Below, piece by piece: positions 1-62,095 of a DNA stretch of 64,000 bases. The stretch is from Sulfuricurvum sp. 17-40-25 (GTDB lineage Bacteria > Campylobacterota > Campylobacteria > Campylobacterales > Sulfurimonadaceae). Position 1 is the stretch's first letter; every line of letters begins with the position of its first letter. The position numbers and the translations under genes were made by a program. The stretch is from contig NCIJ01000002.1 of NCBI GenBank assembly GCA_002282015.1, positions 186,001 to 250,000 of the forward strand. The letters run 5' to 3'. The notes beneath the pieces are model-generated. The model was given only the letters and a program-made list of their open reading frames with translations. It was not told where the DNA came from and did no database searches.

Positions 1-452
1 ATGATTACAATTTTAGAATCAACAGGCAGCTTTAACACTTGATCAATAATATCTTGTGCCGACATTTTAGTAATTTGCTTGCCGCATAAATGACAATGTT
101 GAACACCGATTCGAGCGTACAATAAACGTAAATAATCATAAATTTCAGTAATGGTCCCTACAGTTGAACGTGGGTTCTTAGACGTTGTCTTCTGATCTAT
201 TGCAATAGCAGGCGTAAGCCCTTCTATCTTATCTACATCTGGTTTACCGACACGATCTAAAAATTGACGTGCATACGATGAAAGAGATTCGATATACCGA
301 CGCTGTCCCTCTGCATACAGAGTGTCAAAGGCCAATGTAGATTTTCCACTACCACTAATCCCAGTAAAGATAATAAGTGAGTTTTTGGGAATTTCTAGCG
401 ATATATTTTTTAAATTATGCTCACGTGCACCAATAATTTTAATCATGTCCAT
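1..452 (-). CDS. uvrA: UvrABC excinuclease subunit A, N-terminal part (cut by window edge)
   Basis: DNA-damage recognition ATPase of nucleotide excision repair. The visible 150 residues contain the first Walker A (GISGSGKST, residues 31-39), the family block with [15 protein letters not shown], and the first CxxC (CHLC) of a zinc module. The start at 452 has AGGA about 9 bases upstream; a second in-frame ATG at 446 is possible. The upstream permease gene stops 5 bases before it, so the two may be co-transcribed. The remaining roughly 800 residues lie left of the window. Confidence 0.95.
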
Positions 453-457
453 ACTGT

Positions 458-1198
458 TTATCCTAAAATGATTTTGTACGCCGTAAGGGCGAAAATAATA
501 CTATAAAAGGCTATAAGTACCTGTTTATAATGCTTAATATGTATTTTTTCCAGTAAATAAATGCCTATCCCGATACCAAATAAGGATGAAATAGCCATAA
601 CAAGCCCTGCTTGCCAATGTAACATACCTAAAAATCCCAGGGTGACAAACGACGACGTAGAGGTAAATAGCACAAAAAATAAACCAATAGCTGACGCTTT
701 TTTGAGTTCAAAACCCATAAATGTCACTAATATAGGTGTCATCAAAATTGCACCTCCAACCCCTAACATTCCTGAAAACAAGCCAATAAAACTTCCTATG
801 ACGACATAAAGAGGTCTATTGATTATTTCAGGTCGCGTAGGCTGTGGAGATGACATTACAAACCGTATAAGCGTAAAGACAACAATAGCTAAAAAAGACC
901 ATTCAAGCAATACTTCATCTAAAACTTTTACCAGCATTGCACCAAACATTGCTCCGACTAAACCGCCAAAACCAAAATATTTGATGTCACTGATGCTATA
1001 AGTCTTTTTCTTTTTATGCAGTAAAGCTGCCATAAAAGAGCCAAATACCATCTGCATTACCGATAAAACAATTGCTTCTTTGATCCCAAATCCTAGCATC
1101 ATTAGTAGAGGTACACTTACTGTCCCTCCTCCAATTCCAAAAAAACCGGATAAAGTCCCAACTGCCACACCCAAAACAATTAGTTCGATTGTCATCAT
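458..1198 (-). CDS. TauE/SafE family sulfite/anion exporter-type permease
   Basis: Inner-membrane protein of 246 residues, almost wholly hydrophobic, with about eight predicted membrane segments. It has the two internally related glycine-rich motifs of the family: [19 protein letters not shown] near residue 15 and [16 protein letters not shown] near residue 140. The family exports sulfite, sulfoacetate or other organosulfur anions, or is uncharacterised; a sulfur role would fit a sulfur-oxidising epsilonproteobacterium but this is inference. It lies directly upstream of uvrA on the same strand. ATG at 1198 or 1195 are equivalent start choices. Confidence 0.85.
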
Positions 1199-1316
1199 AT
1201 TACGCTTTATGTTCGATTATACATCGCGATTATACTTTAGTTTACCCCTATTCTTTCCTTGCAAATTTACGCTATAATTAAAAAACTTACTCAAATATAA
1301 CTTTATAGGGTTGCCA

Positions 1317-1739
1317 ATGTTACCAATAATTCTGCAAGCTGCTGAAAATTTTTGCATTCACCAAATCGGTTTACCACATACTACTGTTGATACAAATGAA
1401 AAAAAGAGAACACTTATTGCTTATTTAGACATAGAAACCAAAGATGGTGAAAAACATCGTGCCTATTTAGGATGTGACAAGCTATTAATACAGCATATTG
1501 CAGAGATCTACCTAGGTGAAGAAAGCTCAGATGAGGAGACTCTAATGGACATGTTACTTGAGACCACTAATATGATCATCGGGAGTGCAAAAGTTATCTC
1601 TGAAACGTCAGAGGTTAATGCATTTACCATTTCAACACCACATTTTCTAAAAGAAGATTCTTTCACTATACCTTATGACGCGATTCATACAATCAAAATT
1701 GCTGAGGGTGAAATGATGATTGCGATAAAGGCTTTATAA
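1317..1739 (+). CDS. cheX: CheX-like chemotaxis phosphatase-family protein
   Basis: 140-residue protein of the CheC/CheX/FliY phosphatase fold. The central LLETTNMIIGSAK segment carries the ExxN signature used by this family to dephosphorylate CheY-P. I chose the ATG at 1317 because AGGG at 1307-1310 is 6 bases upstream; an in-frame TTG at 1311 would have no spacing. A TATAAT hexamer at 1273-1278 is a likely -10. It is followed 2 bases later by fliN, so a role at the flagellar switch is likely. Only one ExxN motif is visible, as in CheX rather than CheC. Confidence 0.75.
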   Translation: MLPIILQAAENFCIHQIGLPHTTVDTNEKKRTLIAYLDIETKDGEKHRAYLGCDKLLIQHIAEIYLGEESSDEETLMDMLLETTNMIIGSAKVISETSEVNAFTISTPHFLKEDSFTIPYDAIHTIKIAEGEMMIAIKAL

Positions 1740-1741
1740 TT

Positions 1742-2074
1742 ATGGATGAAGAATTAGCCACTTCTACAGAGCCAGGGTTTGATCCACTCAAAGAACTTGC
1801 ATGGATGGATTATGAGGGATTACTTGACATGGAGGTTGAGTTCGTTTCGGATCTTGGGCAGACAACCCTCTCTTTGGGCGAAATACTCAAGCTGGAAAAA
1901 GGATCTGTAATAGATCTTGGAAAACCGGCCGGTGAAAGTGTCGAATCCTACGTCAATCAACGAATTATTGGAAAAGGTGAAGTAATGGTTTATGAAAAAA
2001 ATCTTGCGATTCGAATCAATGAAGTACTTGATTCAAGTGCAGTATTGTATTATTTATCCAAAGAGAGATTATGA
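1742..2074 (+). CDS. fliN: Flagellar motor switch protein FliN
   Basis: C-ring component that with FliM and FliG sets rotation direction and binds export complexes. The 110-residue protein has a short acidic N-terminus and one SpoA (surface presentation of antigens) domain from about residue 28 to 106, with the typical pattern of a beta strand (MEVEFVSDLGQTTLSLGEIL), SVIDLGKPAGE and a final INEVLDSS. The gene begins 2 bases after cheX and overlaps the next gene by 4 bases (ATGA), indicating translational coupling in a cheX-fliN-fliO-like unit. Confidence 0.9.
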   Translation: MDEELATSTEPGFDPLKELAWMDYEGLLDMEVEFVSDLGQTTLSLGEILKLEKGSVIDLGKPAGESVESYVNQRIIGKGEVMVYEKNLAIRINEVLDSSAVLYYLSKERL

Positions 2075-2967
2075 AAAAATTAGCCCTTATCTTACTGATA
2101 CCTGCAATACTATTTGGCTCAAAGATTCTCAGTTACAATATCTATGATCGTAACGACCATGTTGATATTATGCTTACCTTTGATACTCCCTATGAAGGTG
2201 TTTTACGCCAAAATAGACAAGGTGATATAATCGTTATAAAACTTGAGCAAGCATCAATTGATTCGCCTATAGTAAAAACCATCACCTCTGATTATTTACA
2301 AAAACTTGCAATATCACCTAGCGCTGATCAGATAGAAATCGTAGCAAATGTACCTGCTAATGTTATTCTTCAGGCATCTAAAACATCAGACTCGTATGGC
2401 TTAAGACTACGCTTTAACCCATCGCTTGCATCACCATCACAAGATAGCTTAACCGCACAAAATACTGCCACAAACGCCATGCTTCCAACAAAACAAGGCA
2501 ATGAGTTTGAACAAAGCTATTATGTTGTTATTGGAATATTAATCGTAGGGATTGCTATACTTTTTTGGCTCAAACAAGGAATCTCAAAAAAGACCCTAAA
2601 GATGCGTGATGAACCAAAGGTTCCATGGTCTTTTAAAACAGAAAAATCCAAAAATCCAATCTTATCATCAACTGCATCACTCAGCAATACATTAGGAGGG
2701 GGTGGAGTTCAGATTCGATTCCAAAAAACCCTCGATTCTTCCCACTCTGTTGCTATGCTCGATTTTGGTACACAAAGCTATCTCGTTCTTTTGGGTAATA
2801 ACACTATTTTACTCGACAAGTTTCAGGATAATATTCCTATTTCGCAAAATGAATTTGAAACAATGTTGCAATCAAAACATCAAGAACTGGATGGTTTTTT
2901 TCAATTGGGAACAACGCAAGATGAATCTTTTGATTCTTATAAAGAAAAGGCTTCTGGAGGATATTGA
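2071..2967 (+). CDS. FliO-like flagellar export membrane protein (probable)
   Basis: 298 residues: signal-like hydrophobic N-terminus (1-17), a beta-rich periplasmic region resembling an AMIN domain (about 20-115), one membrane segment (about 150-167), then a cytoplasmic tail whose last 80 residues (VQIRFQKTLDSSHSVAMLDF, YLVLLG) resemble the FliO C-domain. FliO assists assembly of FliP in the export gate. Epsilonproteobacterial FliO proteins are longer than the enterobacterial one and sit next to fliN, as here. The assignment rests on topology and neighbours more than on sequence identity; an unrelated AMIN-type envelope protein is the alternative. Confidence 0.55.
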   Translation: MKKLALILLIPAILFGSKILSYNIYDRNDHVDIMLTFDTPYEGVLRQNRQGDIIVIKLEQASIDSPIVKTITSDYLQKLAISPSADQIEIVANVPANVILQASKTSDSYGLRLRFNPSLASPSQDSLTAQNTATNAMLPTKQGNEFEQSYYVVIGILIVGIAILFWLKQGISKKTLKMRDEPKVPWSFKTEKSKNPILSSTASLSNTLGGGGVQIRFQKTLDSSHSVAMLDFGTQSYLVLLGNNTILLDKFQDNIPISQNEFETMLQSKHQELDGFFQLGTTQDESFDSYKEKASGGY

Positions 2968-2992
2968 TAAAGATTTTTTAGCATATCTTTAA

Positions 2993-3433
2993 TTATATCT
3001 TTCCTTTTTTATAGCCATTTAAAAGACGTAACATATTCTCATTGTGAGAGCTTTCAAGAAGTTTTAATGCAGTAACTCCTTCTTTATTACGAAGGTTTAC
3101 TTTTGCACCATTTCCTAAAAGAATACGTACAAAGGTAACATTACCTTGTTGTATCGCATAATGAAGCGGTGTATTATCCAGTTCAACATCACCCAAGTTA
3201 ATATCAGCACCTGCTTTTATTAATGCCAATAAACTCTCTTTTTGATTCAAGTTAACCGCATGTATTAATGGAGTAATACCCCTATCATTAGGTGCATTGA
3301 CATCATCACCCTCACCTAAAAGACGGTTGATTGCTTCTAGATTACCTTTGGCAACAGCAGAATGATAGGTTGTACATCCATTCAAAAACAGTAAAGACAT
3401 AGCACTGTAAAAAACTACTAATTTTATTCTCAT
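2993..3433 (-). CDS. Ankyrin-repeat lipoprotein
   Basis: 146-residue probable lipoprotein: hydrophobic signal peptide ending in LFLNGC, which gives a lipobox with Cys20. The mature part is three to four ankyrin repeats (for example GITPLIHAVNLNQKESLLAL and NTPLHYAIQQGNVTFVRILL), a protein-binding scaffold without enzymatic residues. The ATG at 3433 is preceded by AAGGAGG at 10 bases; the upstream in-frame TTG at 3442 is too close to that site. It follows the dihydrouridine synthase gene by 15 bases on the same strand and ends 25 bases from the convergent fliO-like gene. Partner unknown. Confidence 0.8.
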   Translation of the reverse strand: MRIKLVVFYSAMSLLFLNGCTTYHSAVAKGNLEAINRLLGEGDDVNAPNDRGITPLIHAVNLNQKESLLALIKAGADINLGDVELDNTPLHYAIQQGNVTFVRILLGNGAKVNLRNKEGVTALKLLESSHNENMLRLLNGYKKGKI

Positions 3434-3448
3434 ATTACACAATCCTCC

Positions 3449-4438
3449 TTAGCAATCGCAACTCATAGATGAGGCCTTAAAACCCTCATGAATTTGACGA
3501 TTTTCACGAAAAAACTTATCCACTACATCCATAAACTCATTAGGATTATCAATTCGATTCACCGCATCGCGTAATGCGGATGCGCCTTCATATCCCTTAG
3601 AATACGTATGGACATGCTTACGAAACAGCACGACACCTCTATCTCCATAAAAAGAGATCATACCCTTCACATGTTCCATGATAATGGCATGCTTTAGCAT
3701 TGGGTCAACGTCACTGTTACCCGTTTTTAATTGATGAAATATCCATGGAGCACCAACTGCCCCTCTTCCAATCATCGCACCATCAGCACCTGTATGCTTT
3801 AAAACCCATTGTGCTTTTTCATATGAATCAATATCACCATTAGCCAATACCGGTATTGAAACAGCTGCTTTAATTTCAGCAATAGCATCATAATCAACAG
3901 CTGCTTTAAACTTTCCAGCACGTGTTCGACCATGTACTGCAATAAAATCAGCTCCGCATTCCTGCACAAGTCTAGCAATTTCAACATGATTTTTTTCTTC
4001 AAAACCCAAACGTATTTTGACGCTAAGCGTTGATTTATTGGAATACTTTTTTATGGTTTCGATAATTTGTGCCATGCGTGGTAAATCTTTGAGTAAAGAA
4101 CTTCCTGATCCATGACACACAATCTTTGGCACAGGGCATCCACAGTTAAGATCAATGATATCAATATTATCTTGTTCATTCAAAATCTCAACAGCACGTC
4201 GGACAACATCAACCTCAGATCCTGCAATTTGCACTGAATAAGGGTCTTCATTAGGACTTCGTTCTAGCATTTTATATGTTTTTTCTGACCCATGAGCCAA
4301 TGCATTGGAACTGAGCATTTCACTGATCGTTAAGTCAGCCCCAAATTTCTTAACCACATTACGAAAAGGAAGATCCGTGTATCCTGCCAATGGAGCAAGT
4401 GCATATAAAGGAGTGTCGAAGGAAAGTTTGTTAGTCAT
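3449..4438 (-). CDS. dusB: tRNA-dihydrouridine synthase (DusB type)
   Basis: FMN-dependent enzyme that reduces uridine in the tRNA D-loop with NADPH. 329 residues, usual family length. TIM-barrel motifs are clear: LAPLAGYTDLPFR at the N-terminus, NCGCPVPKIVCHGSGSSLL with the catalytic cysteine near residue 100, HGRTRAGKF (FMN phosphate and tRNA contact), and NGDI followed by GADGAMIGRGAVGAPWIF. The helical tRNA-binding C-domain follows. The protein ends in SCDC, a short cysteine tail I cannot interpret. It lies at the downstream end of the long gltB operon-like run. DusB is chosen over DusA/C by overall sequence feel only. Confidence 0.9.
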   Translation of the reverse strand: MTNKLSFDTPLYALAPLAGYTDLPFRNVVKKFGADLTISEMLSSNALAHGSEKTYKMLERSPNEDPYSVQIAGSEVDVVRRAVEILNEQDNIDIIDLNCGCPVPKIVCHGSGSSLLKDLPRMAQIIETIKKYSNKSTLSVKIRLGFEEKNHVEIARLVQECGADFIAVHGRTRAGKFKAAVDYDAIAEIKAAVSIPVLANGDIDSYEKAQWVLKHTGADGAMIGRGAVGAPWIFHQLKTGNSDVDPMLKHAIIMEHVKGMISFYGDRGVVLFRKHVHTYSKGYEGASALRDAVNRIDNPNEFMDVVDKFFRENRQIHEGFKASSMSCDC

Positions 4439-4498
4439 GAATAGTACCTATCATAAGGAGCAATTGGAGAAAGAATATTCTTAATCCAATACGTAATA

Positions 4499-5524
4499 TT
4501 AATCGCAGTATCGTCGAAAAAAGATAGCAATATCGTAGTGTTTATTAGAACGCTTCAGATCTCTGTATGCTTTAAAAATCTGATATTCATCATGAGCCGT
4601 GTTATTGAGTAGTTCATTAGCAGTATCTATCATCTGCAAATCATACAAAGTGTAAAAATAAGCTTCCATCACATCATCGCATTGCTCACTCATAGATTCA
4701 AACAGACGTATTCTCTGCTCTGGTATCATATTTTTGGCCAATGCAATTGACAAGTTAATAAAGTCATGATTCGTTAATTTGAGACTTTTGATCAAATTGA
4801 TCAATTCATCATTATTCATCTCAATTCCATTTTCAGCATTGTTGATACGTCCAAGAAAAGTAAACAATGATGATTTTGTCAAAAGATTTTTGTATTTAAT
4901 AACCGAGCCCATTGATGCTGTTTTAACATACGATTCGTATGCCTTTTGACAAACTACATCACCATAAGTATCATGACGTGACAATACTTCATCAGCCGTC
5001 AATTCGCCACGTTCCAAACGGTTTAAATTGTTTTGGATCATCAATGATGTTGTATGCGCTAAATGAAATTTTTTAATATCGACTTTTTTATGTGCCTTAA
5101 CATCTGCAAGGAGAGTTAGTGCTTCATCAATCTTTTCATTCCCAATATCACGTAAATTTTCATAAGGTAAGATCAATGAATTATCGATTAATTTTCCCAT
5201 AAATTTATACGCATCGCTTTTAAATACATAATTTCGCTCAGAGATTCCCAATAGAGAATCACGCAATGCATCAACCATTTTTTCATGATCACGACTTAAA
5301 CGTCTAAGTTTAAAATTTCCAACTAAAACATATACTGCCATGTGCAACACACTTGCAAGATACAAAAGGGCAAGAGGCACCAGAACCCAAAAAGCAATCG
5401 GAAAATTTGGGAAATGAATACCTAATATATCAAATGAAATAGACTGCGTATTGATACTATAGACGGCTAAGCCGACTAAAATCATTAAAATGAATGACCC
5501 GATTGTATAACGTTTTAGTTGCAT
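4499..5524 (-). CDS. Conserved membrane protein of unknown function, two membrane helices and a helical cytoplasmic domain
   Basis: 341 residues. Two membrane helices near the N-terminus (about 9-27 and 43-70) with a short loop between, a topology like LapA-type proteins, then about 270 residues of mostly alpha-helical soluble sequence without cysteine motifs or nucleotide-binding signatures. Good upstream AAGGGG site supports the ATG at 5524. It starts 9 bases after dksA and sits in the same operon-like run as rlmH and dusB. I recognise it only as the kind of conserved gene found beside dksA in epsilonproteobacteria; no function can be assigned. Confidence 0.7.
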   Translation of the reverse strand: MQLKRYTIGSFILMILVGLAVYSINTQSISFDILGIHFPNFPIAFWVLVPLALLYLASVLHMAVYVLVGNFKLRRLSRDHEKMVDALRDSLLGISERNYVFKSDAYKFMGKLIDNSLILPYENLRDIGNEKIDEALTLLADVKAHKKVDIKKFHLAHTTSLMIQNNLNRLERGELTADEVLSRHDTYGDVVCQKAYESYVKTASMGSVIKYKNLLTKSSLFTFLGRINNAENGIEMNNDELINLIKSLKLTNHDFINLSIALAKNMIPEQRIRLFESMSEQCDDVMEAYFYTLYDLQMIDTANELLNNTAHDEYQIFKAYRDLKRSNKHYDIAIFFRRYCD

Positions 5525-5533
5525 TAATTCCCC

Positions 5534-5887
5534 TTAAGCTTTGTTCTTCTCCGCGATAGGACGGCACACAATACAGTATTTGGCGTGAGCCTTGACTTTT
5601 AAGCGTTGAAAACCTATCTCATCTTCACACATATCACATATGCCATATTGTTTTGACTTTATTTTACCCAATGCAACTTCGATTTCATTTAACTCTTTAA
5701 GCTGCTGTGCACCAATAGCACTTTCTACAAGATTTTCATTGCTTGCAGATGCATAATCACCTTCATCATTCAGTTCACTTTCACGAAGCTGTATCATTTC
5801 TTGCTCAACACCATTCAAATTTTTAATAATTTGAACTTTTCGAGCCAATAAAATCTCTTCAAAATAATGCAGTTCACTCTCTCTCAT
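5534..5887 (-). CDS. dksA: DksA/TraR family RNA polymerase-binding transcription factor
   Basis: 117 residues. N-terminal coiled coil carries the DxxDxA tip motif (DEGDYA) that reaches the polymerase secondary channel, and the C-terminal zinc finger is CxxC-X17-CxxC (CDMC ... CIVC). These are the two features needed to work with ppGpp in stringent control of rRNA and amino-acid genes. It is shorter than E. coli DksA (151 residues) mainly at the N-terminus, which is usual for epsilonproteobacterial versions. Lies between rlmH (8-base gap) and the unknown membrane protein. Confidence 0.92.
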   Translation of the reverse strand: MRESELHYFEEILLARKVQIIKNLNGVEQEMIQLRESELNDEGDYASASNENLVESAIGAQQLKELNEIEVALGKIKSKQYGICDMCEDEIGFQRLKVKAHAKYCIVCRPIAEKNKA

Positions 5888-5895
5888 ATGTTCCC

Positions 5896-6354
5896 TTATT
5901 TATGATACGGATGATTATTCAACAATGTAAAAGCTCGATATATCTGTTCTAACAAGACTGCTTTCGCAATCTTATGACTCATAGTAAGCTCAGAAAGACT
6001 AATAACGCTATCACATCGAGAAACAAACGACTCCTCAAAGCCAAATGCCCCTCCGATGAAAAATTGTATCGCGATTTTATCACACAGGAGCTTACTAAAA
6101 GCCAAGCTATCGCATTTTTTTCCATCAGGATGTAACGCAATAGAATATGTTTTGCCCAACATTGGTTCCAATAGCTTACTGTAGGCAATTTTTGACGCCT
6201 CCGCGCTGGTTTGATGTGCTTTGACTATTTCTTTTGGAAATAATTCAACATCATCTATTTTTGCAAAACGGGAAATCATTTTCAGTTGTTCTTGATACAG
6301 CGGATCGTAGAGACAGCGTTCTTTTTTAGCAATAGAGATTAGGGAAATATTCAC
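5896..6354 (-). CDS. rlmH: 23S rRNA (pseudouridine1915-N3)-methyltransferase RlmH
   Basis: 152-residue SPOUT methyltransferase that modifies pseudouridine 1915 in helix 69 of assembled ribosomes. The knot region has [12 protein letters not shown] and the SAM-binding FFIGGAFGF loop, followed by the C-terminal [19 protein letters not shown] motif typical of RlmH (Y-R-A, N-x-PYHK). The start is GTG at 6354, overlapping the thiE-like stop in GTGA, so translation is probably coupled. Confidence 0.95.
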
Positions 6355-6908
6355 AGCAATCCGCTGCCGATTACATGATACGTCACAAATTCAAAGATAT
6401 CGTCACTCTTCACTCCACCAATCGCAGCAACAGGATGGATGGACTCTTTTGCAAACTGATCCAATGAATCGCCCAATACACCTGCTTCCTTTTTGGTAGC
6501 CGTACTACGATAAGCACCTAAACCAATATAGTTAAGTTCTAAAGTATTTGCAATCGCTATTTCCTCACTGTTATGCGTCGAAAGTCCAATGATTTTATCG
6601 TTCCCGATTGCCAATTTAAGTATTGAAAGTGCACGAGAGGGGTCAGTGTCAATTGCATACAGGTCATCTTGACCAATATGAACACCATCACAATAAGCTG
6701 CCAACTCATAATGGTCATTGATGATTAAAAAACCGTCCCACAATTGACGCAGTTCAATCAGATCATTTTTTATAGTGGCAATGTCATCGTTTTTATTGCG
6801 ATACTGAACAATTTCACCGTTTAAAGATTTTACTTTGTCGATTAACTGTGCAAAGCTGACATCTCGTGCACGTAAAACGTCACGATCACATAAAGCATAC
6901 AGTCTCAT
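6351..6908 (-). CDS. thiE: Thiamine-phosphate synthase family protein (ThiE/TenI)
   Basis: 185-residue TIM-barrel protein. ThiE couples HMP-pyrophosphate and thiazole phosphate to thiamine phosphate. Recognisable blocks are VQYRNKNDD (substrate-binding QxRxK site), [36 protein letters not shown] and the final [10 protein letters not shown]...GSG loop. It is 20-30 residues shorter than E. coli ThiE and could be a TenI-like paralogue, but the S-T-x-TK loop and IGLSTHN motif fit a catalytic ThiE. No clear Shine-Dalgarno precedes the ATG; it begins 2 bases after accD, so coupling is probable. Confidence 0.8.
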
Positions 6909-6909
6909 A

Positions 6910-7752
6910 TTAAGGAAGAAGAAGAGTTAGCAGATCACTTAATGTATCTTTGAGCTCATTACGCCCTACGATCATATCAATAGACCCTTTTTCTAATAAA
7001 AATTCAGCTCTTTGAAACCCATCAGGAAGATCTGATCCAATGGTTTGCTTAATAACACGCTGACCAGCAAATCCCACCAATGCACCAGGCTCTGCAATAA
7101 TAATGTCCCCTAATGTTGCAAAAGATGCACTCACCCCACCCATAGTAGGATCCGTCAATAACGAAATATACGGGAGATTTGCTTGAGCTAAACGTGCTAA
7201 TGCTGCAGAGGTTTTGGACATTTGAAGCAATGAAAAAGTACTCTCTTGCATACGTGCACCACCACTTGCACTAACGATGATGACACCTTGTCGTTTTTCC
7301 AAAGCACGATTAATGGCACGTACAATTTTTTCACCCTCGACTGAACCCAAAGATCCACCCATAAAATTAAAATCAAATACGACTAACTGAACAGGAACAG
7401 AATTAATGGTACATTCACCACTCACAACAGACGAGTAACGGCCATTTTTAGCATAGGCTTCTTCAATGCGAGCAGCATAACTTTTTTTATCCACAAATTT
7501 CAAGGGATCGATTGGTTTTAAAGAAGCATCAAACTCTACAAAACTTCCTTCATCAGCAATGATAGCAAGGCGCTCTTGAACACCGATACGTAAATGAAAT
7601 CCACATTTCGGGCAAACATGATTTTGCTTTTCCATCTCTTTGTAGTACATCAATGATTGACATGAAGTACATTTTACCCAGTGAGACGGTGCTTCGCTTT
7701 TTGTAGGCTGTTTCTTTTTCTCGGAGTCACCGAACAGGTTAAATAGACTCAA
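6910..7752 (-). CDS. accD: Acetyl-CoA carboxylase carboxyltransferase subunit beta
   Basis: Transfers the carboxyl group from biotin to acetyl-CoA, the first committed step of fatty-acid synthesis, in an alpha2beta2 complex with AccA. 280 residues, typical length. N-terminal four-cysteine zinc ribbon at C28, C31, C47 and C50, then the crotonase-like core with GGSLGSVEGEKI, SASGGARMQES, LTDPTMGGVSASFA and GFAGQRVI. The start is TTG at 7752 with AAAGGAG 5 bases upstream, overlapping the preceding gene's TGA. Confidence 0.96.
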   Translation of the reverse strand: MSLFNLFGDSEKKKQPTKSEAPSHWVKCTSCQSLMYYKEMEKQNHVCPKCGFHLRIGVQERLAIIADEGSFVEFDASLKPIDPLKFVDKKSYAARIEEAYAKNGRYSSVVSGECTINSVPVQLVVFDFNFMGGSLGSVEGEKIVRAINRALEKRQGVIIVSASGGARMQESTFSLLQMSKTSAALARLAQANLPYISLLTDPTMGGVSASFATLGDIIIAEPGALVGFAGQRVIKQTIGSDLPDGFQRAEFLLEKGSIDMIVGRNELKDTLSDLLTLLLP

Positions 7753-8480
7753 AAATACTCCTTTTCAACTATCAAACGTATCCGTTCAAACACATCTTTA
7801 TTCGAGCTCAAGAGAATATATCTCTCATCTTGAAACCCATAAAGGTGTTGGCTCAAATACAAGCCTGCTTGGATATCAAACGACCGCATTGTACCTAAAA
7901 ATAACACATATTTAACATAAGGCGCATACGCTAATGAGAGTGCGAGTGCACCTGGAGAGCGATACTTTAACTTATTTTGCATCAGCCTTTCACCCAATAA
8001 AGGATGTTCAGGTGCTTTTTCAAAAAGACCTATTTTAGATTTTATATTAGTTACTACTGAAGTTTTATCTTCATATCGATTTATGCTCGTACGATAATAT
8101 TCATTTGCTGTACGTACAAAGATATCGCCATTGGCAAGATTGCATACAACAGCTTCGGTGGTATTACCATCAACTACCAATGCAACAGAGACGCCGTAAT
8201 AAGGGAAAGAAGAAGCAAAATTATCACTTCCATCAATGGGGTCCAAGATTATATTGTGAGACCCCTGAGGTGACATCCATCCACTCTCTTCTGAAAAAAC
8301 AGAACCAAATGAATGTAAATTTGTAAAAAATATTGTTTCAGCTTGTAAATCAATACCACTGCTAATATCTCCACCATGTCCCTTGTCAAATGAGTCAAAG
8401 AGAGACATGTCTTTAGAACCGGTAATTAAATCACGTACTTCTATACATGATTCTATAACCGCTTTTATAAACGGATTCAT
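7749..8480 (-). CDS. Inositol monophosphatase-family phosphatase
   Basis: 243 residues of the lithium-sensitive, Mg-dependent phosphatase superfamily (IMPase, CysQ, FBPase). Metal ligands are visible: FSEESG (Glu near 64), DPIDGSDNF (residues 80-88) and SFDIQAGLYL, which takes the place of the usual WDxAAG motif. Substrate cannot be told from sequence; inositol phosphate, PAP or a sugar phosphate are all possible. Its start overlaps the gltD stop as TAATG and its end overlaps the accD start, so it is translated within the gltB-gltD-accD run. Confidence 0.85.
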   Translation of the reverse strand: MNPFIKAVIESCIEVRDLITGSKDMSLFDSFDKGHGGDISSGIDLQAETIFFTNLHSFGSVFSEESGWMSPQGSHNIILDPIDGSDNFASSFPYYGVSVALVVDGNTTEAVVCNLANGDIFVRTANEYYRTSINRYEDKTSVVTNIKSKIGLFEKAPEHPLLGERLMQNKLKYRSPGALALSLAYAPYVKYVLFLGTMRSFDIQAGLYLSQHLYGFQDERYILLSSNKDVFERIRLIVEKEYF

Positions 8481-58508: not shown

Positions 58509-59789
58509 ATGTCATCGACTATCAAACGCCAAAACCACCGTATCCACCCTTGTAATGCTGCCCGTAAAACGGAGTTGCTTAATTTTGTAATCTCTCAAAA
58601 CCCTGCCCGATCTATTCTCATCGTAACTACCAATGATACAAAAGCGATTGATGTAACACAAACCAAAGAGATCACTATCGTAAGCGACAGTGATTTAGTA
58701 CAGCCTAGTGAGACGATGTATGACATCGTTATCAGTTATGATCTACCTGACAAAGCAATCATCTACATGACACGCTACGCTCGTGCAAAAGAGTTTGCCA
58801 TTATCTTGTTAGGTTCTGAGGATCAAAAAAATCTGTATGCTATCGAAACACTTTTCGGCCGTACTATCACACAAGAGCCTGTTGCAGGTTTTGAGCCAAA
58901 CTTCGGTATCGCAGTTGAGCAAAAAAACAAAGAAGAGATGGCTGCACAACGTGCACAGCGTGAGGAAGAACGCAATAAACCGCGTTCAGCCAAACGTGAT
59001 TTTAAGCCTCGTCGTGATGATGCGCGACCTGAGTTCAAGCGTGAAGATCGTGGTCCTCGTGACGATAACCGTCCAGCCCGTAAACCGTATGAAGGGAACA
59101 AGGATGATTCGCGAAGCGAGTTCAAACCTCGCCGTGATGATTCACGACCTGATTTTAAACGCGAAGACCGCGGTCCACGAGACGACAATCGTCCGGCTCG
59201 TAAACCGTATGAGGGCAATAAAACTGAGTCAAGAAATCCATGGGATAAGAAACCAAGACCTACAGAGTTTTTGGGCAAAGATGAAAATGGTAAACCGATT
59301 TTTGGTACTAAAACACGTGAACGTAATCACTATATTGATGGCACACCAAGAAGCGATGCGGATAAGTTTGCAAAAACAGCTTACGTGAATAAGCCAAAAT
59401 TCTTTGGTGAACATGATAAAGCTCAAAAAAATGATGAAGGAAAAAAACCTTTCAATCCTGAACGTAAACCGTATGAGGGAAAACAGGCGTTTAACAAAGA
59501 CGATAAACGCCCATTTGAAGATAAGAAGCCTTACGGTGATAAAAAGCCATTTGGGGATAAAAAACCGTACGGAGACAAGAAGCCTTTTGGAGATAAAAAA
59601 CCATATGGTGACAAGAAGCCGTACGGAGATAAAAAACCTTATGGTGAGAAAAAGCCCTATAACAACAAATCAACGAGTAATTACAAACCATCCTTTGACG
59701 CACACAAACCTGCGCATACCGATACAGCGCCCAAGCGAGCACCACGCCGTATCAGCGTAAAATCTCTCAAGCCATCAGAAGATAAATAG
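58509..59789 (+). CDS. Helicase-derived, catalytically dead RhlE-like RecA2 protein with long repetitive charged tail
   Basis: 426 residues. About 1-150 align in order with the second RecA domain of RhlE/DEAD-box helicases: IHPCNAARKTELLNFVI (compare HPVDKRRKRELL), SILIVTT, then DIVISYDLPDKAIIYMTRYARAKEFA, YAIETLFGRTI and a GFEPNFGI strand. The whole first RecA domain (Q, Walker A, DEAD) is absent, motif V is missing and motif VI reads MTRYARA instead of HRIGRTAR. The remaining 275 residues are disordered: two 40-residue RDD/RGP units (DNA 59001-59240) and an array of KKP[YF]G hexapeptides. Ribosome site AAGGACTTTC before the ATG, so it is expressed, not obviously a pseudogene. Likely an RNA-binding, condensate-type protein (inference). 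Confidence 0.7.
   Translation: MSSTIKRQNHRIHPCNAARKTELLNFVISQNPARSILIVTTNDTKAIDVTQTKEITIVSDSDLVQPSETMYDIVISYDLPDKAIIYMTRYARAKEFAIILLGSEDQKNLYAIETLFGRTITQEPVAGFEPNFGIAVEQKNKEEMAAQRAQREEERNKPRSAKRDFKPRRDDARPEFKREDRGPRDDNRPARKPYEGNKDDSRSEFKPRRDDSRPDFKREDRGPRDDNRPARKPYEGNKTESRNPWDKKPRPTEFLGKDENGKPIFGTKTRERNHYIDGTPRSDADKFAKTAYVNKPKFFGEHDKAQKNDEGKKPFNPERKPYEGKQAFNKDDKRPFEDKKPYGDKKPFGDKKPYGDKKPFGDKKPYGDKKPYGDKKPYGEKKPYNNKSTSNYKPSFDAHKPAHTDTAPKRAPRRISVKSLKPSEDK
59001..59240 (+). repeat. Two 120-bp tandem units (40 residues each) in the helicase-derived gene
   Basis: Units 59001-59120 and 59121-59240 encode FKPRRDD-A/S-RP-E/D-FKREDRGPR... with nearly identical protein (about 33 of 40 residues) but many synonymous changes, for example CGTGGTCCTCGT against CGCGGTCCACGA. 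Selection appears to act on the protein repeat. Confidence 0.85.
59502..59660 (+). repeat. Array of 18-bp units encoding [DE]KKP[YF]G
   Basis: About nine degenerate hexapeptide units (DKRPFE, DKKPYG, DKKPFG ... EKKPYN) with varied codons (aaaaagcc, aagaagcc, aaaaaacc). Length variation between strains by slippage is likely. Confidence 0.85.
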
Positions 59790-59896
59790 ATACAGATAAC
59801 GCTTTTATCGCCCCTATATCGAATTCTGATTAATCGATATCAAAAACTATACTCTTTACAGATTTTCGATTAAATTTATAGAGAAGTTCTTTTAGG

Positions 59897-59932: not shown

Positions 59933-60445
59933 TTAAAACCAATACGATGGATAAGTATTTTTTTGATCAAGATTTAGGTACAGTAGAGCTACAACAACTA
60001 AAATTATTGCACCTACTAAGGTTGGAAGTCCTAAAAATGACCAGCTGGCACCTGTGAGAAAAACGATCAACGGATTAGAACCCGCAGGTGGGTGGACAGT
60101 TTTTGTTGCAAGCATTACCGCTATTGCTGTTGCTAGAGCCAAAGCCATACTCCACCATTCAATTCCGACAAAGTGATAAAAGGATAAACCTATCAATGTC
60201 GATAAAAAATGACCCGCAATAACATTCCTGGGTTGTGAAAATGGACTTTTAGGAAATCCAAACAATAAGACACATGAGGCTCCAAATGATCCTAATACAA
60301 GTGGTTTATCTATTGTTTCTGTTAAAAATCCTATAGTTGAGATTGCGATTAATCCGCCAAACCAAGCAAATACTATAGATTTAAATGAAGCTGACGGAGG
60401 AAGAGATGCGCTCTCTCCCAAAAATTTTTTAAAATATGTCTTCAT
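59933..60445 (-). CDS. HPP-family membrane protein
   Basis: 170 residues, about four to five membrane helices (for example FAWFGGLIAISTIGFL and LALATAIAVMLATKTV), with the family signature HPPAGSNPLIVFL near residue 118. Some HPP proteins transport nitrite (NitT); most are unassigned. AAGGATATATAG precedes the ATG. Ten bases downstream of the haem-oxygenase-fold gene and so in the same TetR-controlled unit. Confidence 0.85.
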   Translation of the reverse strand: MKTYFKKFLGESASLPPSASFKSIVFAWFGGLIAISTIGFLTETIDKPLVLGSFGASCVLLFGFPKSPFSQPRNVIAGHFLSTLIGLSFYHFVGIEWWSMALALATAIAVMLATKTVHPPAGSNPLIVFLTGASWSFLGLPTLVGAIILVVVALLYLNLDQKNTYPSYWF

Positions 60446-60455
60446 CTATATATCC

Positions 60456-61217
60456 TTAATATTCTATTGGAACAATGAGTTCACCATTCAAATTGAATTT
60501 CGGTGAGATCGTCATACCAATCCACGAATGTAGCATACTTGCCCACAATTCAATACCTTCTAAAGCTTTAGCAATTAATATTTGTCCTCTGATGGAAGTT
60601 GCTTCATGTACTTCAATATATTCAAGTCCCATAATACTATGATGTTCGTCGGCTTCAACATGAACATCAAAATAATCATGTCCAATACCCAATAAATGCA
60701 TTTTAGGTGATATAGCTTTAAAAAAATCATTTGAACAACGTTCAATCCCACTGTTTAGACCAACCAACCATTTTTCACGATCTTGTTCTATAGCCATTTG
60801 ATAAGCATAATTGACACAAGCATTTGTTTCTCTGGTTGCGATAGTGTTATAAACTTCATCTTTACTATTAATGATTTTATTTTTAAGCATCCAATCCATG
60901 AGCATAGCTGAATGATCTGCTTCTCCATATGCATGCTTTGCATAAAAAGGCATCATAGAGGTTTCACTAAGGGGTGTTAATGCAAGCATTAATCCCATAA
61001 CTTTTGGAAATGTATCAGAGTGATAGTACAACTGACAAACGGCATTTTTAAATTCTTGAGGATCTTGAATATTGTCTAGCCATTTAAAAAATGGCATATT
61101 TTTTACACATTGTGAAGCATTATAGATTGGTTTAACAATCCAATTATGCTTAAGTTCAAGAGCGCTTAATTGCTTTTCATTGATTTCTTCGTAAATTGTA
61201 GTGTTAACATCTGTCAT
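60456..61217 (-). CDS. Haem-oxygenase-like iron-containing redox enzyme (HDO superfamily), function unknown
   Basis: 253 residues, mainly alpha-helical. Candidate metal-ligand motifs YGEADHSAMLMDW and DVHVEADEHHSIMGLEYI, spaced like the His/Glu/Asp ligands of haem-oxygenase-fold diiron oxidases (PqqC/TenA-like). No signal peptide. AAGGATATCAA before the ATG. It is first in a two-gene unit with the HPP protein, behind the CAAAC-N4-GTTTG operator at 61306. The reaction cannot be predicted; a diiron oxidase or oxygenase acting on a small toxic substrate is a reasonable guess. Confidence 0.65.
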   Translation of the reverse strand: MTDVNTTIYEEINEKQLSALELKHNWIVKPIYNASQCVKNMPFFKWLDNIQDPQEFKNAVCQLYYHSDTFPKVMGLMLALTPLSETSMMPFYAKHAYGEADHSAMLMDWMLKNKIINSKDEVYNTIATRETNACVNYAYQMAIEQDREKWLVGLNSGIERCSNDFFKAISPKMHLLGIGHDYFDVHVEADEHHSIMGLEYIEVHEATSIRGQILIAKALEGIELWASMLHSWIGMTISPKFNLNGELIVPIEY

Positions 61218-61302
61218 TTGATATCCTTTTTTTTATTTGGTTTTTGAATACATATCGTGAAGCCGTATTAATGTTTATATTGTTCGCCTCCTGTGGTTAG
61301 TT

Positions 61303-61319
61303 AAACAAACGTTTGTTTG
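61303..61319. promoter_or_regulatory. TetR operator upstream of the HDO-HPP operon
   Basis: AAACAAACGTTTGTTT at 61303-61318 is a perfect 16-bp palindrome; it contains CAAACGTTTGTTTG (61306-61319), which differs at one of 14 bases from the site at 61906-61919. It lies 86 bases upstream of the HDO start and 20 bases after the TetR gene stop. Confidence 0.8.
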
Positions 61320-61338
61320 ATAAAATAAGCAAAAAAAA

Positions 61339-61896
61339 TCAATCAAACTTTGCAATTAATTTTTTGCCGATTCTGAGGTACGAATCAGAGTTATCATAGA
61401 GGTTCATCATCATAATTGCTCCTTGCCATGAAGCAACTACTTCCGAGGCAATTTCTTTTGATAAATGTGAATCAAAATTATTTTTAAGAATTTCAATCAG
61501 GGCATGTTCCCAATTTGTAAAATAAGCAACAATTTCCTCTTTAAACTCAGGAAGATCGTGTGCAGCTTCGAGAGCTAAATTGCCAAGTAAGCACCCTCCA
61601 GCACTTTTTAAAAAATATTCATCGTTTTTTTTAACGAATTGAATCATCTTATCTTTATCACTTAAATGGGTTTGATATGCAATGCTGAAAATATGTTGAT
61701 TAAAATATTCATGAATATATTTAAGAGATTCTAAACCAATTTGTTCTTTGCTTTTAAAATAATGGTACATACTTCCTTTTATAAGTCCACATGCCTCTCC
61801 AATATTTGCCATAGTTGTATTGTGATAACCATGTATTTTAAAAAGAGCAACTGACTCTTTAATGATAGATTCTCTGTCTGTTTTTATAATTGGCAT
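61339..61896 (-). CDS. TetR-family repressor
   Basis: 185 residues from ATG 61896 (the TTG at 61908 falls within an operator). N-terminal helix-turn-helix: SIIKESVALFKIHGYHNTTM, ANIGEACGLIKGSMYHYFKS, KEQIGLESLKYI. Ligand domain of the AcrR/NemA-regulator kind with LLGNLALEAAHDLPEF and two close cysteines near residue 95 (GGCLLG has one). Autoregulation is suggested by an operator over its own leader. Target operon lies immediately downstream on the same strand. Confidence 0.9.
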   Translation of the reverse strand: MPIIKTDRESIIKESVALFKIHGYHNTTMANIGEACGLIKGSMYHYFKSKEQIGLESLKYIHEYFNQHIFSIAYQTHLSDKDKMIQFVKKNDEYFLKSAGGCLLGNLALEAAHDLPEFKEEIVAYFTNWEHALIEILKNNFDSHLSKEIASEVVASWQGAIMMMNLYDNSDSYLRIGKKLIAKFD

Positions 61897-61904
61897 TCTT
61901 TTAT

Positions 61905-61920
61905 CCAAACGATTGTTTGG
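61905..61920. promoter_or_regulatory. TetR operator over the tetR leader
   Basis: CCAAAC-GATT-GTTTGG, a 6-bp inverted repeat with 4-base centre. It overlaps the region just upstream of the ATG at 61896, in good position for autorepression. Shares the CAAAC-N4-GTTTG core with 61306-61319. Confidence 0.8.
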
Positions 61921-61985
61921 GAAAATAATACACTATTAAAAATAAGTTGTCAATAGTGTTGTCATAAGAGTTAGAATAAATTTAG

Positions 61986-62095
61986 TTAATCATTTTCTGT
62001 AGCTGGTATCCAACGATACTCCAAGATCTTTGGCAACATCACGCGGAGGAACACCGCTGGCAAGCAGCTTTTACGAATCGTTGTAGAGTAGAAAA
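61986..62095 (-). pseudogene. Decayed serine recombinase (resolvase/invertase) C-terminal fragment
   Basis: Minus-strand reading in shifting frames gives IRK, then KLLASGVPPRDVAKDLGVS, then YRWIPATEND and a TAA at 61986-61988. This is the C-terminal helix-turn-helix of Hin/Pin-type recombinases, normally written ...LLASGVPPRDVAKNLGVSIPTLYRWVPA. The SxPTL stretch is deleted with a frameshift, and another shift lies at the left of LLASG. No catalytic domain is present. A trace of an old mobile element or inversion system. Confidence 0.7.

Follow-up and report, generated by a model that had tools for sequence, protein, structure and literature searches.

The window (the whole 64,000-nt stretch of Sulfuricurvum sp. 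17-40-25 that was analysed) harbored, in this order, genes encoding a TetR-family repressor, a predicted haem-oxygenase-fold oxidase (HDO), and an HPP-family membrane protein, flanked by remnants of Tn3-type genes (Table 1). All three proteins had Pfam matches above cut-off (TetR_N plus a C-terminal domain, PF14518, and PF04982, respectively), with the TetR domains scoring 51.5, 41.4, and 38.7 bits against cut-offs of 24, 27, and 27 bits, and the HPP protein matching PF04982 over its full length (173 vs 27.2 bits, 4.6e-51). The sequence-only reading had placed this system at 60456-61920, a range that takes in tetR and HDO and leaves the HPP gene outside. Comparison with relatives set the conserved start of tetR at the ATG at 61896, the upstream TTG at 61908 being a product of mechanical ORF listing. 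In addition, a ribosome-binding-like AGGAGG was observed ~70-95 nt before the HDO start, both in the window (61287-61292) and at L007 (~5900-5905), a related locus, with no obvious gene behind it, possibly indicating a short leader peptide. Beyond the cassette, the plus-strand protein ending at 59789 contained an extended stretch of KPYGDKKPFGDK-type repeats (59400-59680).

Table 1. Features of the tetR-HDO-HPP locus, in window coordinates.
Feature	Position	Strand	Description
tetR	61339..61896	-	185 aa, TetR_N + TetR_C_13/LmrA-YxaF-like C-terminal domain, Cys102
HDO	60456..61217	-	PF14518 haem-oxygenase-fold oxidase (predicted), 253 aa
HPP-family membrane protein	59933..60445	-	PF04982, 170 aa, starts 10 nt behind HDO
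tetR promoter, sigma-70-like	61925..61953	-	TTGACA-17-TATTAT, 11/12 consensus matches (promoter scan)
Operator 1 (putative)	61905..61920	no strand	minus-strand reading CCAAACAATCGTTTGG; core 23 nt upstream of tetR ATG, 5 nt behind -10 hexamer
Operator 2 (putative)	61303..61319	no strand	minus-strand core CAAACAAACGTTTG (61306-61319), between tetR and HDO; perfect 16-bp palindrome 61303-61318
Tn3-type resolvase gene remnant	61986..62072	-	3' end, helix-turn-helix part
Tn3-type transposase gene remnant	59786..59826	-	41 nt from 3' end

The two near-identical sites proposed earlier as operators were recovered at 61306-61319 (CAAACGTTTGTTTG) and 61906-61919 (CAAACGATTGTTTG), agreeing at 13 of 14 bases and both containing CAAAC-N4-GTTTG, and they were the only exact matches to this motif in the 64-kb window. 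With up to one mismatch allowed, 7 matches were found in the window vs a mean of 3.05 in shuffled sequences. First-order Markov simulations yielded the motif in 0.04% of draws for the gap upstream of tetR (241 nt) and in 0.02% of draws for the gap downstream of it (121 nt). The 61306 site overlaps a longer dyad, AAACAAACGTTTGTTT, which is the perfect palindrome listed in Table 1, and on the minus strand the operator 2 register common to relatives reads CAAACAAWCGTTTG. Genome-wide, CAAAC-N4-GTTTG occurred at 8 places in the genome to which the window belongs, compared with 5 for a reversed control pattern; the 6 places remaining after the two operators were treated as background because they were about as many as the control matches, and a wider regulon in this genome was rejected on the same count.

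A protein search with the TetR across 248 genomes of the order (cut-off 1e-15) recovered 10 genomes, including its own. Eight of the nine other relatives were 48-62% identical to the window TetR, and all eight carried CAAAC-N4-GTTTG in the leader, 22-26 nt before the tetR start, with a second site just behind tetR in 7/8. The same operator pair surrounded tetR at L006 and L007, two loci found by the HDO search. Counting the window, L006, L007, and the eight relatives, operator 1 was present in 11/11 loci and operator 2 in 10/11, with HDO carried by 3 of these 11 (the window, L006, and L007). The spacing from operator 1 to operator 2 was 594-604 bp across loci, owing to the constant length of tetR. 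At the ninth relative, 35% identical to the window TetR (L044/L053), CAAAC-N4-GTTTG was absent, and a related palindrome, TACCAA-N4-TTGGTA, was recognised by eye in the leader. A scan of 10 genomes with CAAACNNNCGTTTG placed 19 of 25 matches at tetR loci, compared with 5 matches for the reversed pattern, and in seven genomes this tetR accounted for the only two matches. The sites are present, not absent, at orthologous loci, a point singled out beforehand as decisive, and the proposal that the TetR and the site pair belong together was supported, with both sequence and position being kept. By these results, the TetR with its operator pair is probably a dedicated local switch.

The window promoter lies directly before operator 1, and a -10-like hexamer ended exactly 5 nt before the operator 1 core in 11/11 loci. 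This hexamer had 5/6 consensus matches in nine loci and 4/6 in two, against a background in tetR coding DNA in which 8% of windows reached 5 and 31% reached 4. Operator 1 probably covers the transcription start site, a placement that fits autorepression. At operator 2, a preceding hexamer with 5/6 matches was found in 2 of 10 loci and one with 3/6 in a single locus, with none in the other seven, and the promoter scan of the window detected no promoter there. Being mostly without a -10-like hexamer, operator 2 probably acts as a roadblock or a loop partner in one autoregulated operon, and a single tetR-HDO-HPP transcript appears likelier than two separately repressed promoters. Thus, of the earlier proposal that the repressor probably controls both tetR and the HDO-HPP pair, the pairing of the TetR with both sites is retained, whereas operator 2 stands on no recognisable promoter and control through one operon is the likelier arrangement. 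The main rival to the roadblock or loop reading is a promoter without a -35 box at operator 2, which would drive HDO-HPP alone and have its start covered by that operator. In the loci with operator 2, the tetR stop is recurrently followed by a T-run and the DNA immediately ahead of the operator is AT-rich, and promoters without a -35 box occur in Campylobacter, all in keeping with a second promoter, but the inconsistent hexamer and the empty promoter scan count against it, and we regard two separately repressed promoters as somewhat unlikely.

The genes following the repressor differed among loci. HDO and then HPP stood behind operator 2 in the window, L006, and L007, HPP alone did so at L047, L048, and L051, and a DUF1348 gene followed the repressor at L045, L049, L050, and also L052, which is without operator 2 (DUF1348 was called by Pfam scan for three of these four loci or their copies, and by tblastn likeness for L049). 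The view of HDO-HPP as the fixed target of this repressor was therefore abandoned. At L046, the ~2.4 kb behind operator 2 lacked an 80-aa open frame. In this locus (4641-8409, tetR on the plus strand), short direct repeats (TTTCAATACACCATGTGTATAGG...) follow operator 2, and then a Cas1-like open frame, so that the place of the target gene of relatives seems to be taken by a CRISPR-like array.

HDO and HPP occurred together in 9 of 13 further HDO loci, with HPP directly downstream in seven, upstream at L013, and on the opposite strand ~1.2 kb off at L015; no HPP adjoined HDO at L010 (where the contig ends), L011, L014, and L017, nor did it at L034/L054. The records of the HDO loci were titled Sulfurovum, Thiotrichales, Gammaproteobacteria, Gallionellaceae, Methylocapsa, Aneurinibacillus, and others. 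Over HDO-HPP, regulators of at least three types were found, namely this TetR, a divergently transcribed TetR of another type, and a CGNR/ABATE protein. The second-type TetR was located at four of the nine paired loci, L008, L009, L012, and L016, with ACAGACNNGTCTGT in 4/4 of the tetR-HDO gaps, and an additional, weaker ACAGACNNGTCTGT copy closer to tetR was noted in the L012 and L016 gaps. The divergent CGNR/ABATE-type gene was detected in two HDO loci, L015 and L017 (in the latter named by likeness to the Pfam-scanned L015 protein), with HPP also present at L015 only. Moreover, HDO adjoined DUF1348 on a Beijerinckia plasmid, with a TetR gene nearby. The recurrence of HDO-HPP under several regulators indicates that the enzyme-permease pair is the conserved unit and that the regulators have been exchanged.

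Tn3-family unit transposons with regulated passengers are known, e.g., the mer elements. L006 contained a Tn3-family element (~179-6302) with 54-bp end inverted repeats, an intact resolvase (PF00239, 164.5 bits), tetR-HDO-HPP, and an intact transposase (PF01526, DDE_Tnp_Tn3, 406.9 bits); no 5-bp direct target duplication was seen around it. Window positions 62072-59827 were 95% identical to L006 871-3131, and the match resumed in the transposase tail (window 59826-59786, L006 6159-6199). These partial resolvase and transposase matches indicate that the window copy, with ~87 nt of the resolvase and 41 nt of the transposase left, is not an intact Tn3 but a decayed element whose passenger genes are still open. 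On the strength of these matches, the window cassette is a Tn3-family passenger, an origin that the sequence-only reading did not include. Known Tn3-family transposons with regulated passengers resemble L006 in having inverted repeats, a resolvase, an operon with its own repressor, and a transposase, but the passenger of L006 and the window is an uncharacterised oxidase-permease pair, and the window copy differs further from unit transposons in having lost its transposase and most of its resolvase.

Relative to L006, with few substitutions in each gene, dN and dS were 0.011 and 0.039 for tetR, 0.010 and 0.072 for HDO, and 0.052 and 0.291 for HPP, giving dN/dS below 1 in all three. tetR and HDO were 98% identical between the two loci; the HPP gene (window 59933-60445, L006 2513-3022) was 73-84% identical over its first 180 nt and 92-100% identical over the rest, which suggests that HPP is a mosaic produced by recombination inside the gene. 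The L006 record is titled Izemoplasmatales, and this 11-kb contig, with a passenger 95% identical to that of the window, may have been misbinned. The genome of the window also contained, on L020 (1-10485, contig C4), a sister Tn3-type transposase that was 95% identical with one in-frame stop, located downstream of genes with the look of copper handling (multicopper oxidase, outer-membrane efflux type) and adjoined by a different resolvase.

Among 298 genomes of the order that were searched, HDO was found in its own genome only, and its absence from the other 297 is as expected for horizontal gain. The same single genome was found among 298 genomes of the phylum, a draw overlapping the order sample, and L007, titled Sulfurovum and carrying HDO, came from another collection. 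In the class around the genome of L012, HDO was detected in 2 of 321 genomes at 1e-30 (that of L012 and L034), and a tblastn search of plasmids found it in 2 of 72,556 records.

The AlphaFold model of HDO (pLDDT 85) had CADD (Z 17.4; 201 residues, 2.9 A), UndA (16.9), and AetD (16.1) as its nearest structures, with TenA relatives nearly equal to HDOs in fold score (3oql, Z 16.8). Identity to the solved members in structural alignments was at most 18%, and a sequence search against the PDB gave no significant relative. Residues E99, H102, E159, H186, D190, and H193 were invariant in 11/11 aligned HDO sequences, i.e., the window and 10 of the 13 further loci, with L015 left out for its in-frame stop, L016 for a frameshift, and L018 because the contig end cuts it. 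These six residues are putative metal ligands by the spacing in UndA and CADD and not by the geometry of the model, in which confidence drops below 50 at residues 96-98, adjoining two of the putative ligands. The six residues fit the pattern of three histidines and three carboxylates (3H/3C) described for HDOs (PMC13108848). The haem-oxygenase-type fold suggested at the outset is supported, as are residues of the 3H/3C type. We infer that HDO is a putative dimetal enzyme activating O2 or peroxide. It shares the seven-helix fold, as modelled, and the three invariant histidines and three carboxylates with UndA, CADD, SznF, AetD, and the DtpC of Acinetobacter, but is set apart from the solved members by its low identity, its predicted control by a repressor, its pairing with HPP, and its surroundings, in which no biosynthetic cluster was recognised. 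A reaction has been assigned to about a dozen HDOs in a superfamily of more than 10,000; fatty acids and amino acids are the main substrates of those characterised, among which are several N-oxygenases (PMC13108848).

As for the signal perceived by the TetR, the best NCBIfam match was AcuR (NF051457), whose 81.7 bits fell far under the equivalog cut-off of 247, so the protein was not filed as AcuR. The operator site presumably resembles a PsrA box, and a PsrA identity was rejected as well (E 0.06). Cys102 aligned with Cys106 of NemR in a column kept in all 17 aligned TetRs, and the same cysteine in 3 of 5 PDB relatives displayed indicates that it is common in the TetR subfamily. With this cysteine being widespread and the position of NemR Lys175 occupied by Asn, a Cys-Lys switch of the NemR type is not supported as such; the location of Cys102 makes an oxidant or electrophile that reacts with thiols a candidate inducer. 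In NemR, Cys106 is involved in responding to HOCl (PMC7464077), and Cys100 of its homologue AltR is needed for the thiosulfinate response (PMC13178969). The window shares with NemR-nemA-gloA of Escherichia coli and AltR of Pantoea ananatis an inverted-repeat operator placed at the promoter of the repressor gene, structural genes that follow this gene, a conserved cysteine in the GC(L) position, and probably autorepression by the TetR; NemR additionally has a TetR_C_13-type domain in common with it. The window differs from them in operator sequence, in the second operator directly after tetR, in the Asn substitution, and in its targets, which are HDO, HPP, or DUF1348 among its TetR kin rather than NemA/GloA or the alt genes.

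Further hints of a role against reactive species are indirect. They come from DtpC, an HDO-like protein that limits H2O2 in dried Acinetobacter cells (PMC13232832), from a fungal DUF1348 protein linked to cercosporin resistance, the knock-out being as resistant as the wild type (PMC4608573), and from an HPP gene beside hcpR1 in Desulfovibrio that rises with NO (PMC5701242). Alternatively, the TetR may sense a non-reactive, acrylate-like small carboxylate, as AcuR does, and HDO-HPP would then form an uptake and catabolic route instead of a protective one. The AcuR match and the fatty and amino acid substrates of known HDOs are consistent with such a route, but the score far below the AcuR cut-off, the neighbours of HDO-HPP viewed by eye, among which no recurrent catabolic gene was recognised, and the link of the alternative partner DUF1348 to cercosporin resistance make it unlikely.

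The window HPP protein resembles, in its full-length match, a family that includes a cyanobacterial and chloroplast nitrite transporter, an HPP protein reportedly having been given this function in the title of a 2014 study by Maeda. A nitrogen-oxide route, in which HDO would be an N-oxygenase or a nitro/nitroso handler and HPP would move nitrite, could draw on that title, on the NO-responsive Desulfovibrio gene, and on the N-oxygenases among HDOs, but it is quite improbable given that the neighbourhood is not recognisably one of nitrogen assimilation, that no nitrogen-metabolism gene recurring beside the pair was recognised by eye, and that nitrite transport by this HPP branch is putative.

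Taken together, we consider it reasonably probable that the locus is an autoregulated, inducible tetR-HDO-HPP operon, brought in as a Tn3-family passenger and directed against a reactive compound, the cassette probably serving inducible stress protection. The detoxification or uptake route suggested at the outset is likewise putative. In the resting cell, a TetR dimer would occupy operator 1, at its own start site, as well as operator 2, ~600 bp downstream; occupation of operator 1 would keep the whole tetR-HDO-HPP transcript off, and operator 2 would tighten repression of the structural genes by roadblock or looping. The TetR would be released by a small ligand or by a compound that oxidises or attacks thiols, in the latter case most likely via Cys102, whereupon HDO, as a dimetal enzyme activating O2 or peroxide, would destroy or modify the offending compound and HPP would be the membrane transporter of a product or of a related small anion.

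This kind of switch is known, and in the open-access literature searched, by title and start of abstract, its set of partners, the HDO-HPP pairing, and the Tn3 carriage were not found treated. To our knowledge, no function has been established for DUF1348 or for most HPP proteins. More tentatively, as a possibility that we would rate short of probable, an undescribed family of TetR-operator switches may govern interchangeable protective genes (HDO-HPP, HPP alone, or DUF1348) against reactive chemical stress. In that case, HDO would be a novel dimetal oxidase that protects against stress in concert with HPP, and the cassette would spread between phyla, partly on Tn3 elements. The dedicated repressor and its defined operator provide a direct handle on this system, in that the inducer, found through an operator 1 reporter, would point to the HDO substrate. 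Furthermore, its state as a Tn3 passenger suggests that the trait has been under selection and exchanged among environmental bacteria.
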